DNA of 41,660 nucleotides, taken from positions 1 through 41,660 of the forward strand of contig JAKAYS010000009.1 in assembly GCA_021826695.1 (NCBI GenBank), written 5' to 3'. The position numbers and the translations under genes were made by a program. How positions within the stretch are numbered: position 1 is the stretch's first letter; every line of letters starts with the position of its first letter. The DNA comes from Acidobacteriota bacterium (GTDB taxonomy: Bacteria; Acidobacteriota; Terriglobia; Terriglobales; Acidobacteriaceae). Under the pieces are notes generated by a model that made no database searches, had not been told where the DNA came from, and saw only the letters and a list, made by a program, of their open reading frames with translations. This document shows positions 2-15,789 of this stretch, one piece after another.

Positions 2-121
2 GAGGAAGCCGCGCCCGGGGGGGAATTTTTTCTGGAACCAGAGGAACTTAAGATTGCCATAGGTCAAATCGGAATCGGCAGGTTAGCTCCAGTCCCAGGG
101 CCCAATCCATCGGTTAGATGA
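2..121 (+). CDS. C-terminal tail of an unidentified gene (5' truncated by window)
   Basis: One frame is open from the window edge to a TGA at 119-121 and encodes about 39 residues ending in a Pro/Gly-rich tail (..GRLAPVPGPNPSVR). The tail is acidic and then hydrophobic (EFFLEPEELK, IAIGQIGIG), which looks like a real protein end, but I do not recognise the family. It reads toward the hemD-GAF-ANTAR gene 57 bases downstream, so it may be an upstream member of the same operon. Nitrate or nitrite assimilation would fit the siroheme context, but that is inference only. A chance open frame of this length in GC-rich DNA cannot be excluded. Confidence 0.35.
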   Translation, partial: EEAAPGGEFFLEPEELKIAIGQIGIGRLAPVPGPNPSVR

Positions 122-177: not shown

Positions 178-1830
178 ATGCCACAAGCGAGCTTCCAGGG
201 ATTGCGTGTCCTTTCACTCGAAAGCAGGCGCGCCAATGAGATCGCCAAGCTGATTCGGATGTATGGGGGTGAGCCTACGGTGGCCCCCGCCCTGCGGGAA
301 GTCCCTCTCGCGTCCAATCGGGAAGCACTTGACTTTGCCGCGTCACTGATGCGTGGCGAGTTCGATCTGGTCATCTTTCTGACCGGCTCCGGTATCCGTT
401 GTCTGATGAACATCGTACAGGCGGAGTATGACCGGGATACTTTTCTGACAGCGCTTCGGGGAGTGAAGATTGCATCCCGGGGGCCCAAACCCTCTGCTGT
501 TTTGCGGGAATTCCATGTCCCGGTCACTGTCACCGCGCCTGAACCCTGTACCTGGCGAGAGCTGATTGGCGCGATGGAAAGCGAAATCGGTCAGGGTTTC
601 AACGGTCTACGCATTGCGATACAGGAGTATGGCGCTCCAAACCCAGACTTACTGGCTGCGTTGAAGGGACGCGATTGCATCGTGACCCGCGTGCCCGTCT
701 ACCAGTGGGCGCTCCCGGAGGACCTAAGCCTGCTCCGTGAATGTATCCATGCAATTGCCGAGCGGCGAGTCGACGTTGTTCTCTTTATGACTGCCGTCCA
801 GGTGGCCCATCTGTGGCAGGTTGCCGAACAGATGCATTGCCTGGAAGAGATGCTTGACGGACTCAATGCCACCGTTGTAGTTTCCATAGGACCCAGTACA
901 TCAGAGGAGTTGCGCCGGCACGGAGTATTGCCGGATTATGAACCCTCCCATCCAAAGATGGGTTTTCTCGTCAATGAGGCAGCGCAGCGTGCCGCCAAGC
1001 TGCTCGAAGGCAAACGGTCAGGCCATGCGCTTAAAAAACTGCCCCCGCAACAGGTGGCTTCTTCCAGCCCAATGGCCCGAGACCATGCCGTGGGCAAGAC
1101 AGCTTACGAACTTCGACACAAGAAGAAAGATCCTACAGATATCGAGTTCCTGCACGCCATCGGCAGCCGCATGGCCGCTGCCGACCCGTTCCACGCGGTG
1201 CTGGAACACATCGTCGATTTTGTCTCTACCCTGGTGATGTGCGATTCGTGCTTCATCTATGTATTGGAGAAGGACCGGCTCGTCCTTCGCGCATCGAAAA
1301 ATCCCCATGCGGACATAGTGGACCATCTTGGGCTGCGTCTGGGGCAAGGCATTACCGGTTGGGTCGGCCAACACCGCGAGCCTGTGGCCATCGCCATGAA
1401 CGCGTTGAAGGACCCTCGCTTCAAAATCTTCAAAGACCTGCCGGAAGACCTTTTTGAAGCGTTTCTCTCTGTTCCCATCCTCTGTCGCGGAAAATTGGTC
1501 GGAGTTATCAATGTGCAGCACCGGCAACCGTACCACCACACCCCGCGCGAGGTGCAGATGATCTCGACCATTGGATTTCTGGTTGGCGGGGAGATCGAGA
1601 TGGCGCGGTTGGAAAGCGAGAAGCTGAACCTCTCCGACCAATTGGAGACGCGCAAGCATGTGGAGCGCGCCAAAGGGATCCTACAGCGCGAGTTCGGCCT
1701 CAATGAAGAAGACGCCTACAAAACGATGCAGAAAGAAAGCCGCCAGCGGCGTAAAACGATGCGCGATATTGCCGAGGCAATCATCTTGAACGAAGAGCTT
1801 CGCCGCGACCAGTCTGCCAGAAAGCAATAG
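178..1830 (+). CDS. Uroporphyrinogen-III synthase (HemD) fused to GAF and ANTAR domains
   Basis: A 550-residue three-part protein. Residues about 8-275 are a HemD-type uroporphyrinogen-III synthase domain (start GLRVLSLESRRANE, then FLTGSGIRCL, and VVSIGPSTSEELRRHGV near 232-250). A basic linker follows. Residues about 335-475 form a GAF domain (GLRLGQGITGWVGQHREPVA; SVPILCRGKLVGVINVQH). Residues about 485-542 form an ANTAR RNA-binding antiterminator domain (HVERAKGILQREFGLNEEDAY). HemD makes uroporphyrinogen III from hydroxymethylbilane; ANTAR domains bind paired hairpins in leader RNAs to prevent termination. The ATG at 178 has GAGGATAAGGG just upstream. cobA follows, so synthase and methyltransferase of siroheme synthesis are adjacent. 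HemD domains attached to regulatory modules are known in nitrate-assimilation regulators such as actinobacterial NnaR, so a regulatory role in nitrogen assimilation is likely. Whether the HemD part is still catalytic cannot be judged by eye. Confidence 0.88.
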   Translation: MPQASFQGLRVLSLESRRANEIAKLIRMYGGEPTVAPALREVPLASNREALDFAASLMRGEFDLVIFLTGSGIRCLMNIVQAEYDRDTFLTALRGVKIASRGPKPSAVLREFHVPVTVTAPEPCTWRELIGAMESEIGQGFNGLRIAIQEYGAPNPDLLAALKGRDCIVTRVPVYQWALPEDLSLLRECIHAIAERRVDVVLFMTAVQVAHLWQVAEQMHCLEEMLDGLNATVVVSIGPSTSEELRRHGVLPDYEPSHPKMGFLVNEAAQRAAKLLEGKRSGHALKKLPPQQVASSSPMARDHAVGKTAYELRHKKKDPTDIEFLHAIGSRMAAADPFHAVLEHIVDFVSTLVMCDSCFIYVLEKDRLVLRASKNPHADIVDHLGLRLGQGITGWVGQHREPVAIAMNALKDPRFKIFKDLPEDLFEAFLSVPILCRGKLVGVINVQHRQPYHHTPREVQMISTIGFLVGGEIEMARLESEKLNLSDQLETRKHVERAKGILQREFGLNEEDAYKTMQKESRQRRKTMRDIAEAIILNEELRRDQSARKQ

Positions 1831-1887
1831 CGATGTGCCTGTGCTCGCATCTGCGCGGCAAACAAAAAACAATAGGTGAGGGTTGTA

Positions 1888-2685
1888 TTGACCGCTGAGA
1901 AAGGCAAGGTGTATCTGGTGGGCGCAGGGCCGGGCGATCCGGAACAACTGACCGTGCGCGCGCTTCGGCTCCTCTCGTCTGCCGATTTCATTTTTCATGA
2001 CGATCTTGTCCCATCACAGATTCTCTCGTTGGCCCGCAGCGATGCCGAGATTGCCAGCGTCGGCAAGCGCTGCGGCAGAAAATCGATCTCGCAGGATGAA
2101 ATCAATGCTGCGTTGGTCCGCGAGGCAAGAGAGGGCCACAGCGTCGTGCGCCTCAAGAGTGGCGACCCGTTGCTTTTTGGCCGCGCCGCGGAAGAGATCG
2201 AAGCGCTGCGGACAGCGTGCGTTCCCTTCGAAGTGGCTCCCGGCATCAGCGCGGCCTTCGCAGCGGCTGCTGCGCTCCAAACCCCGCTCACAGATCGTCG
2301 TTTGGCGTCGAAGGTAATCTTCCTGACGGCGCATCGCGCAGAACACTTCATTGCGCCTATGTGGAGTGGCGAATTGCCGGAGGACGCGACCCTCGCCATC
2401 TATATGCCGGGAGCAGACTATGGCCGGCTTGGGAGCGAATTGATGGCGTGTGGACTGCCCTGCAAAATGCCTGCCATGATCGTCTCGCACATTGGTTTGC
2501 CCGGTCAGCGCATTCAACAGAGCACGTTGTCCCAGCTTTTTCGGGTGGACACTCTTCCCGCACCAGCGCTCTTGCTGGTCGGCTGGGCAGTCGCCACCAA
2601 CATTACCCTCATCCAGAACGAGAGTCTATGTGCAACTCCAATGCACGACAGAATATCGGATTCCAGCCCCGATGCCATGGTTTGA
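1888..2685 (+). CDS. cobA: Uroporphyrinogen-III C-methyltransferase (SUMT)
   Basis: SAM-dependent methylation of uroporphyrinogen III at C2 and C7 gives precorrin-2, the branch point to siroheme and cobalamin. Family motifs are present: the N-terminal VGAGPGDPEQLTVRALRLL loop, DDLV, VGKRCGRKS, and the GDPLLFGRAAEE loop. PGISAAFAAAAALQTPLTDR matches the usual PGxS/PLTHR segment, although the His is replaced by Asp. I place the start at the TTG at 1888 because AGGTGAGG (1874-1881) lies six bases upstream; the in-frame GTG at 1876 lies inside that site and would add four residues. The protein is the short single-domain form with no CysG-type dehydrogenase or ferrochelatase part. It lies 57 bases after the HemD fusion and is probably cotranscribed. 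Confidence 0.9.
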   Translation: MTAEKGKVYLVGAGPGDPEQLTVRALRLLSSADFIFHDDLVPSQILSLARSDAEIASVGKRCGRKSISQDEINAALVREAREGHSVVRLKSGDPLLFGRAAEEIEALRTACVPFEVAPGISAAFAAAAALQTPLTDRRLASKVIFLTAHRAEHFIAPMWSGELPEDATLAIYMPGADYGRLGSELMACGLPCKMPAMIVSHIGLPGQRIQQSTLSQLFRVDTLPAPALLLVGWAVATNITLIQNESLCATPMHDRISDSSPDAMV

Positions 2686-2887: not shown

Positions 2888-2933
2888 AGATCGCCAAGGG
2901 TTTTTTCCAATAACAGGAGTGTGAGATAGATAT

Positions 2934-3305
2934 ATGGGCACGCAACCACCATTGATGACTCGTGTAAAGGTAGACCATGCCAAACGCAGCAATGACTCGG
3001 ACGTTGCCGTGCTGCGCTTTTCCGGCGATATTACAGGCACCTCCAACGATGCCGTTTTCAAGGCATATCGGAAGATTCCCGCAGGCGCCAGCAAGCTGGT
3101 CTTCGATTTCTCGAAGGTCGAATACATCAATTCCAGCGGTATCGCCCTGGTGATTGAGCTGCTGATGGCAGCCAAGAAGGACAACCGTACCATTCAGAGC
3201 TTTGGCCTGTCGCCCCACTTTCAAAAGGTTTTTGTCATGGTCGGCCTGAACCAATACACGCACCAGCATCCGGATGAGGCTTCGGCCTGCGCCGCTTTCG
3301 ATTGA
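2934..3305 (+). CDS. STAS-domain protein (anti-sigma-factor antagonist type)
   Basis: A 123-residue single-domain cytoplasmic protein of the SpoIIAA/RsbV class. After a short N-terminal tail it shows the STAS core: VAVLRFSGDI, ASKLVFDFSKVEYINSSGIALVIELLMAAKK, and FGLSPHFQKVFVMVGLNQY. In known family members the serine in the NSSG-type loop is phosphorylated by an anti-sigma kinase and controls partner switching; NSSGIAL is intact here. No partner kinase or phosphatase lies in the window, so the target pathway is unknown. An AGGAG sits at 2915-2919, 14 bases before the ATG, which is long, so translation may use a weaker site. The palindrome at 2872-2887 suggests regulated transcription. Confidence 0.85.
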   Translation: MGTQPPLMTRVKVDHAKRSNDSDVAVLRFSGDITGTSNDAVFKAYRKIPAGASKLVFDFSKVEYINSSGIALVIELLMAAKKDNRTIQSFGLSPHFQKVFVMVGLNQYTHQHPDEASACAAFD

Positions 3306-15195: not shown

Positions 15196-15789
15196 ATGAT
15201 CGGAAATATTGTCAGACAGCGCCATTTCGTTCGCCGCCTCGGATTGCTTTTTGCCAGCGGCCTCCTGACGGCGCTTCCTATTGTGGCCCAGGACATGCAA
15301 CCGAATTTTCCCGTCACTCTGGACAAGAAGCTGGCTGCGCGGGCAGCCAATGTACATGAGGTGACTTTGAACAAAAATATGCTCGAATTTGCCAGCCAGT
15401 TCCTGAGCAATATGCAGTCGGGCGATGTACAGGCGCAGCACTTGATCCAGAAACTGAATGGCATTTACGTGCGCGAGTACGACTTCGCCGAACCCGGCCA
15501 GTACACCGCCGAGGACCTGCAAACCATTCGCAAGCAATTTTCCGGTCCGGAGTGGAACCCGATGGTGCGTGTCCATTCCAGCAAAGGCGGCGAAGGCGAT
15601 ACCGACGTCTATGTCCAACTGGTCAATGGAGTGATCCAGGGAATGTTCGTTCTCGATGCTAAGGCGCGAAAGCTGGATTTTGTCTACATCTCCGGCCCTA
15701 TTCGTCCGGAAGACCTGAAGGCGCTCAGCGGCAACTTCGGCATTCCGAATATCAACACCGGTAAAGGCTCGAAGGCGACAACCGACTGA
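15196..15789 (+). CDS. DUF4252-type exported protein
   Basis: A 197-residue protein with a signal peptide (VRRLGLLFASGLLTALPIVAQ). The mature part has LTKNMLEF-like LNKNMLEFASQFLSN, QHLIQKLNGIYVREYDF, the central WNPMVRVHSSKGGEGDTDVYV stretch (quoted to its edge), and ARKLDFVYISGPIRPEDLKAL. These fit DUF4252, found in Bacteroidota and Acidobacteriota. AAAGGAG lies just upstream of the ATG, 13 bases after the anti-sigma gene, so the three genes form one operon. The exported product is a likely target or sensor of the sigma system, by inference. Confidence 0.75.
   Translation: MIGNIVRQRHFVRRLGLLFASGLLTALPIVAQDMQPNFPVTLDKKLAARAANVHEVTLNKNMLEFASQFLSNMQSGDVQAQHLIQKLNGIYVREYDFAEPGQYTAEDLQTIRKQFSGPEWNPMVRVHSSKGGEGDTDVYVQLVNGVIQGMFVLDAKARKLDFVYISGPIRPEDLKALSGNFGIPNINTGKGSKATTD

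Follow-up and report, generated by a model that had tools for sequence, protein, structure and literature searches.

A HemD-GAF-ANTAR fusion protein in nitrite reductase operons of Acidobacteriota: a likely regulator acting through a paired-hairpin leader RNA

We examined a 41,660-nucleotide stretch of DNA from a member of the Acidobacteriaceae (Acidobacteriota; assembly GCA_021826695.1, contig JAKAYS010000009.1), referred to below as the window, with respect to a fused regulatory gene near its start. One ATG frame on the plus strand (178..1830) encodes a 550-residue protein with three domains, each matching its Pfam model above the curated cut-off: a HEM4/HemD-like domain (residues 21-265, 238..972; E = 9.7e-37), placed by a tree in an NnaR- and nirBD-linked clade; a GAF domain (residues 339-472, 1192..1593; E = 1.5e-14); and an ANTAR RNA-binding domain (PF03861, residues 485-536, 1630..1785; E = 1.8e-17). 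A disordered linker (residues 284-335, 1027..1182; pLDDT below 50), which varies among relatives and falls in gapped alignment columns, separates the first two. The AlphaFold model is confident for the domains (mean pLDDT 81.9), Foldseek ranked the Thermus uroporphyrinogen-III synthase and GAF structures at the top, and sequence comparison matched the ANTAR domain to Rv1626, EutV, NasR and AmiR. On the same strand, 45 nt downstream of the fusion, cobA (1876..2685) encodes a uroporphyrinogen-III C-methyltransferase of the siroheme branch (TIGR01469, 232 bits against a cut-off of 185). The original prediction, made from the window alone, had described HemD, GAF and ANTAR domains in a single frame followed by cobA, and this description stands.

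The window is an entire contig (C167) that begins inside nirD, the gene for the nitrite reductase small subunit, whose 3' end occupies 2..121 on the plus strand. The end of a second contig, C73, overlaps positions 1-151 of the window by 151 nt, 149 of them identical, and the frame continues NirD across the overlap; nirB and the remainder of nirD lie on C73, immediately upstream of the window. In the closest relative found (L113), whose fusion protein is 90% identical, nirB, nirD, the fusion and cobA are contiguous. From this arrangement and the contig overlap, the operon is leader-nirB-nirD-fusion-cobA. The siroheme-dependent nitrite reductase, its likely regulator and the enzyme that opens siroheme synthesis are thus encoded together. 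The fusion carries the only ANTAR domain found in this genome.

Full-length fusions were present in 75 of the 298 genomes of the order, with named carriers including Edaphobacter, Granulicella, Terriglobus, Acidipila, Paracidobacterium and Acidicapsa. We aligned 36 complete homologs (50-63% identity), every one encoded in a single frame. A frameshift in relatives had been named in advance as a reason to discard the fusion; none was found, and the single-frame homologs and 75 carriers rule out a frameshift, an assembly artifact or joined genes as its source. In most other genera, the fusion adjoins nirA together with genes for a molybdopterin nitrate-reductase-like protein, a flavoprotein reductase and an Fe-S/membrane-anchor subunit; genes for a porin, a formate/nitrite transporter or a major facilitator superfamily (MFS) protein occur in the vicinity. 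From these neighbors we infer a role in nitrate/nitrite assimilation. The position beside cobA, by comparison, holds for the window's own lineage but not for most relatives, where a nirA operon is next door. Several genomes (G068, G065, G006, G045, G033, G105, G146 and others) encode two full-length fusion paralogs. A fusion with 53% identity also occurs on contigs L169 and L176 of two metagenome-assembled genomes labeled Rhodanobacteraceae, through either lateral transfer or mis-binning. Within the window's own genus, neither fusion nor leader was found in five genomes (G078, G108, G163, G269 and G277) at the thresholds used; therefore, the genus has either acquired the operon in the course of its history or lost it more than once.

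The 5' untranslated regions (UTRs) of the relatives' nirA-nasA operons contain paired hairpins, which we call P1 and P2. P1 has a variable stem and a six-nucleotide loop (hexaloop) such as CATGCC, and P2 has the form GCTC-CNNGAN-GAGC; the element starts approximately 120-220 nt ahead of the nirA start codon. The corresponding leader of the window's genome lies upstream of nirB on the minus strand of C73 (3081-3148), with P1 as GAACAC-CGTGCC-GTGTTC and P2 as GCTC-CACGAT-GAGC. A covariance model was built from 14 leaders of the window's family only, the P2 loops for training being located with a pattern that fixes G at loop position 4 (G4). With this model the C73 leader, itself in the training set, was the sole strong match in its genome (E = 1.8e-12; next best 0.05), approximately 3 kb from the ANTAR gene in the same operon. 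Across the 298 genomes, a strong leader was found in 36 of the 75 fusion carriers versus 2 of the 223 others (Fisher p = 5e-23, phylogeny ignored), and most strong matches lie near the fusion gene. In G231, the match is in a different part of the genome from the fusion. Four of seven P1 pairs changed on both sides, but one control of this covariation is weak, and P2 is invariant by selection. Searched against Rfam, the window and seven related loci yielded nothing but a tRNA.

The first loop position is A and the fourth is G in known ANTAR targets (PMC3369931), and in the EutV-RNA structure G4 is the sole base-specific contact (PMC8934654). G4 is present in 27 of 30 P1 loops and 31 of 32 P2 loops, part of the P2 set having been found by the G4-fixing pattern. 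The EutV residues that contact G4 (R142, K149, E160 and Y164) align with R492, K499, E510 and Y514 of the fusion, the first three of which are invariant among the 36 fusions and the last nearly so.

The leader is also found outside the window's family. In G019, from a different family, the covariance model matched the nirB 5' UTR (E = 4.7e-6); this nirB has a stand-alone HemD-like gene downstream and a GAF-ANTAR gene in divergent orientation beside it. Both halves of the fusion thus neighbor the same operon as separate genes. In four genomes of a third family (G514, G476, G401 and G555), the leader matches upstream of an ammonium transporter, and GAF-ANTAR-like sequence without HemD is present at each of these loci, the ANTAR part alone being matched in G401. 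The order GAF-ANTAR, element, ammonium transporter recurs in G126, within the window's own family, with a weak score and well-formed hairpins. It is reasonable to infer that nitrogen control by GAF-ANTAR and the dual-hexaloop RNA is the older arrangement, and that HemD goes with the use of this pair for nitrite/siroheme. Matches in G422, G375, G300 and G478 from the class-wide scan, and in G041 from the scan of the order, were taken as chance, as no GAF-ANTAR or nir gene was found nearby. As side observations, GAF-ANTAR sequence without HemD accompanies ammonium-transporter genes carrying the dual-hexaloop RNA upstream at L221, L222, L224, L226 and L219; the protein at L221:696-1949 is a DUF4118-GAF-ANTAR, another way of combining sensors within this RNA system; and at L211:4899-7105 a stand-alone HemD-like gene is followed directly, in the same orientation, by an ammonium transporter.

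Taken together, we consider it likely that the fusion, encoded in the operon itself, is an RNA-binding protein that regulates siroheme-dependent nitrite assimilation through the P1/P2 leader. The ANTAR domain would bind the G4 hexaloops of P1 and P2 at the 5' end of the nirB-nirD-regulator-cobA transcript and, in relatives, the same element on nirA-nasA transcripts, and binding would raise expression of the operon, including that of the regulator itself. The HemD-like domain would most likely serve as a non-enzymatic sensor or dimerization input linked to nitrite or siroheme supply, with the GAF domain, which contains an invariant CxxC motif, as a second input. The preferred control step would be release of the ribosome-binding site (RBS). 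The original prediction of a nitrate/nitrite regulator that acts on RNA thus agrees with the location of the fusion in or beside nirBD or nirA-nasA operons headed by an ANTAR-type pair of hairpins, and is largely right in outline. Its proposal that the protein prevents transcription termination is unproven and now doubtful.

Classical antitermination, in which ANTAR binding stabilizes P1/P2 and thereby blocks a downstream intrinsic terminator, as for EutV and NasR, is the strongest competitor for the control step. The 5' ends of nir transcripts carry paired hexaloops, the hallmark of such systems (PMC3369931), the lowest-energy fold of the C73 leader disrupts P2 in favor of downstream structure, and in L134 a UUUU run follows a hairpin downstream of P2. 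However, a terminator scan of the C73 leader found no terminator-like site, U-runs after P2 are almost absent from approximately 25 leaders, and the G019 nirB leader leaves only approximately 45 nt, with no U-run, between its second hairpin and the start codon. Pairing that excludes P2 in favor of the downstream hairpin was no better than chance; a mutually exclusive P2/P3 helix, hinted at by single folds, did not exceed dinucleotide shuffles and was rejected as a general rule. The lack of any ANTAR-type leader in the genome had likewise been named in advance as grounds for refutation; the paired hairpins upstream of nir genes were found, but for the most part not the terminators after them. 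The absence from the C73 leader is informative because this genome does use canonical terminators. On contig C88 (L037; approximately 15655-15692, minus strand), a strong intrinsic terminator (CACCCGTCGCAG...CTGCGGCGGGTGTTTTTTG) lies approximately 20 nt before the start codon of a nirA/sulfite-reductase-like gene, which is followed by a second cobA. This leader has no dual-hexaloop element and is possibly another leader switch.

Pairing between the P1-P2 region and the RBS was stronger than in mismatched leaders and exceeded that of other segments of the same leaders (Kolmogorov-Smirnov p = 5e-5), and it was very strong in L118, L121, L055 and L041. Against shuffled linkers, however, the excess was weak (p = 0.03-0.07 across all 24 leaders), and occlusion of the RBS, significant by two controls, was therefore dropped as a general rule and kept as lineage-specific. 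In the predicted fold of the C73 leader, the 5' arm of P2 pairs with a Shine-Dalgarno-like GGAGC that belongs to a small upstream open reading frame (ORF) rather than to nirB. That genome has an ORF of 41 codons (MKLSFRHWNW...; C73, also L038, approximately 2890-3000, minus strand) with a Shine-Dalgarno-like sequence, overlapping the start of nirB, and it is possible that it encodes a leader peptide or serves translational coupling. Overall, RBS release comes out slightly ahead of antitermination as the control step, without proof, and the full antitermination account seems to us possible but rather doubtful.

The role of the HemD-like domain raises a second alternative, that it is an active uroporphyrinogen-III synthase supplying siroheme while GAF-ANTAR reports flux through the pathway. 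The operon neighbors nirBD and cobA are compatible with such a bifunctional enzyme, and Deinococcus retains a stand-alone HemD in its nirBD operons. The motifs TG-x-GxR, RG-x-K and Q-x-YG are shared with the product-binding Thermus enzyme and conserved among fusions, as the alignment to an active enzyme suggested by the original prediction revealed; since these motifs are retained, it is plausible that the domain binds a ligand. However, the genome has a separate canonical hemD, the second copy for which a search had been proposed, and it scores 223.7 bits with the HEM4 model versus 129.2 for the fusion, which also falls below the NCBIfam uroporphyrinogen-III synthase cut-offs (132 vs. 233). 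In a tree of 34 HEM4 domains, with plasmid loci among the sources, the fusion HemD is well separated from this genome's canonical HemD and clusters with stand-alone acidobacterial HemD-like proteins and the Deinococcus HemD encoded directly after nirD (support 100/99). NnaR is the next group (90/86, under the usual strict bar), which bears out the comparison with NnaR-type HemD domains in the original prediction. The fusion also aligns to the NnaR family NF005568 over residues 4-273, scoring 126.5, below the cut-off of 273. NnaR genes occur in linkage with nirBD, siroheme genes and nitrate transporters. Growth-supporting use of nitrate and nitrite requires NnaR, the HemD domain of which has been reported as inactive in Streptomyces coelicolor (PMC6277429, PMC11162112), and the signal that this HemD senses has been described as an open question (PMC11162112). 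An active synthase is therefore unlikely. As for the GAF domain, its Cys355-Asp-Ser-Cys358 motif (1240..1251, plus strand) was identified in protein alignments. Both cysteines are invariant across the 36 fusions, and each of the 12 stand-alone GAF-ANTAR proteins that we inspected has CDSC, which suggests, at the level of sequence, a redox or metal input.

Several observations nonetheless weigh against a regulator that acts through P1/P2. Loop position 1 is C in 24 of 30 P1 and 28 of 32 P2 loops, unlike the A of known targets, with A in only a few loops such as P2 of L226 and L219. The prevalence of G4 is weakened by the G4-fixing pattern that supplied the P2 training loops. The essential Met172 of EutV, a hydrophobic plug, is replaced by an invariant Arg522, and stand-alone GAF-ANTAR proteins also have Arg at this position. 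The linker between P1 and P2 is 17-41 nt (23 in the window's genome), compared to 5-12 nt in eut; 39 of the 75 fusion carriers have no strong leader match; and the 41-codon ORF sits between the hairpins and nirB in the window's genome. The chance-level P2 pairing and the weak excess of RBS pairing over shuffled linkers count on the same side. A further alternative is that a different RNA-binding protein or ligand recognizes the RNA and that GAF-ANTAR is associated with it by gene neighborhood alone. In its favor, the leaders are mostly close to the gene for the regulator, which confounds association with linkage, and the loops depart from the known rule at position 1. We nevertheless consider it very improbable: the single ANTAR protein of this genome and its single strong element share one operon, and the element accompanies GAF-ANTAR at unrelated ammonium-transporter loci, both in another family and in G126.

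If the fusion does regulate through P1/P2, a broader view can be put forward tentatively, at somewhat less than even confidence: Acidobacteriota may have an as yet undescribed class of nitrogen regulators in which GAF-ANTAR proteins act on C1/G4 leaders of ammonium-transport genes, and capture of an NnaR-type HemD domain may have re-targeted this RNA system to siroheme-dependent nitrite assimilation, with control at the RBS rather than by antitermination. The leaders found here would also add Acidobacteriota to the range of ANTAR target RNAs; the loop rule (C1, G4) and the reading residue are altered there, and the control step is probably another one. That a HemD of the NnaR kind recurs at nir operons, this time with an RNA-binding output, argues for HemD itself as the nitrite/siroheme sensor module, and the fusion system offers a way to test this role. 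Our literature searches, covering open-license papers, found no published description of the protein or the RNA.

Among known systems, NnaR of Actinomycetota, a HemD-winged helix protein, resembles the fusion in its N-terminal HemD-like domain, which belongs to the neighboring clade, and in its linkage to nirBD. However, its output is an OmpR-type DNA-binding domain, whereas the fusion has an ANTAR RNA-binding domain together with GAF. The Deinococcus HemD proteins are the closest non-acidobacterial relatives found and are likewise encoded by the third gene of the operon, following nirB and nirD, but they stand alone, without the GAF and ANTAR domains that the fusion has. With NasR, AmiR and EutV and their dual-hexaloop RNAs, the system shares the ANTAR fold, the G4-contact residues and paired G4 hexaloops upstream of nitrogen genes; it differs in its HemD-GAF input, mostly C1 loops, Arg in place of the Met plug, a longer linker and the near absence of terminators. 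The actinobacterial ANTAR RNAs (PMC8164766) are similar in their proposed control of translation, and linkers of 2-25 nt were accepted there. However, those RNAs are A1/G4 and overlap the RBS, whereas here the RBS follows P2 at a distance of approximately 60-160 nt (less in G019), and the pairing spans a long range and is specific to certain lineages. The fusion is thus an NnaR-type sensor joined to an RNA-binding output, a variant of the ANTAR-RNA systems.
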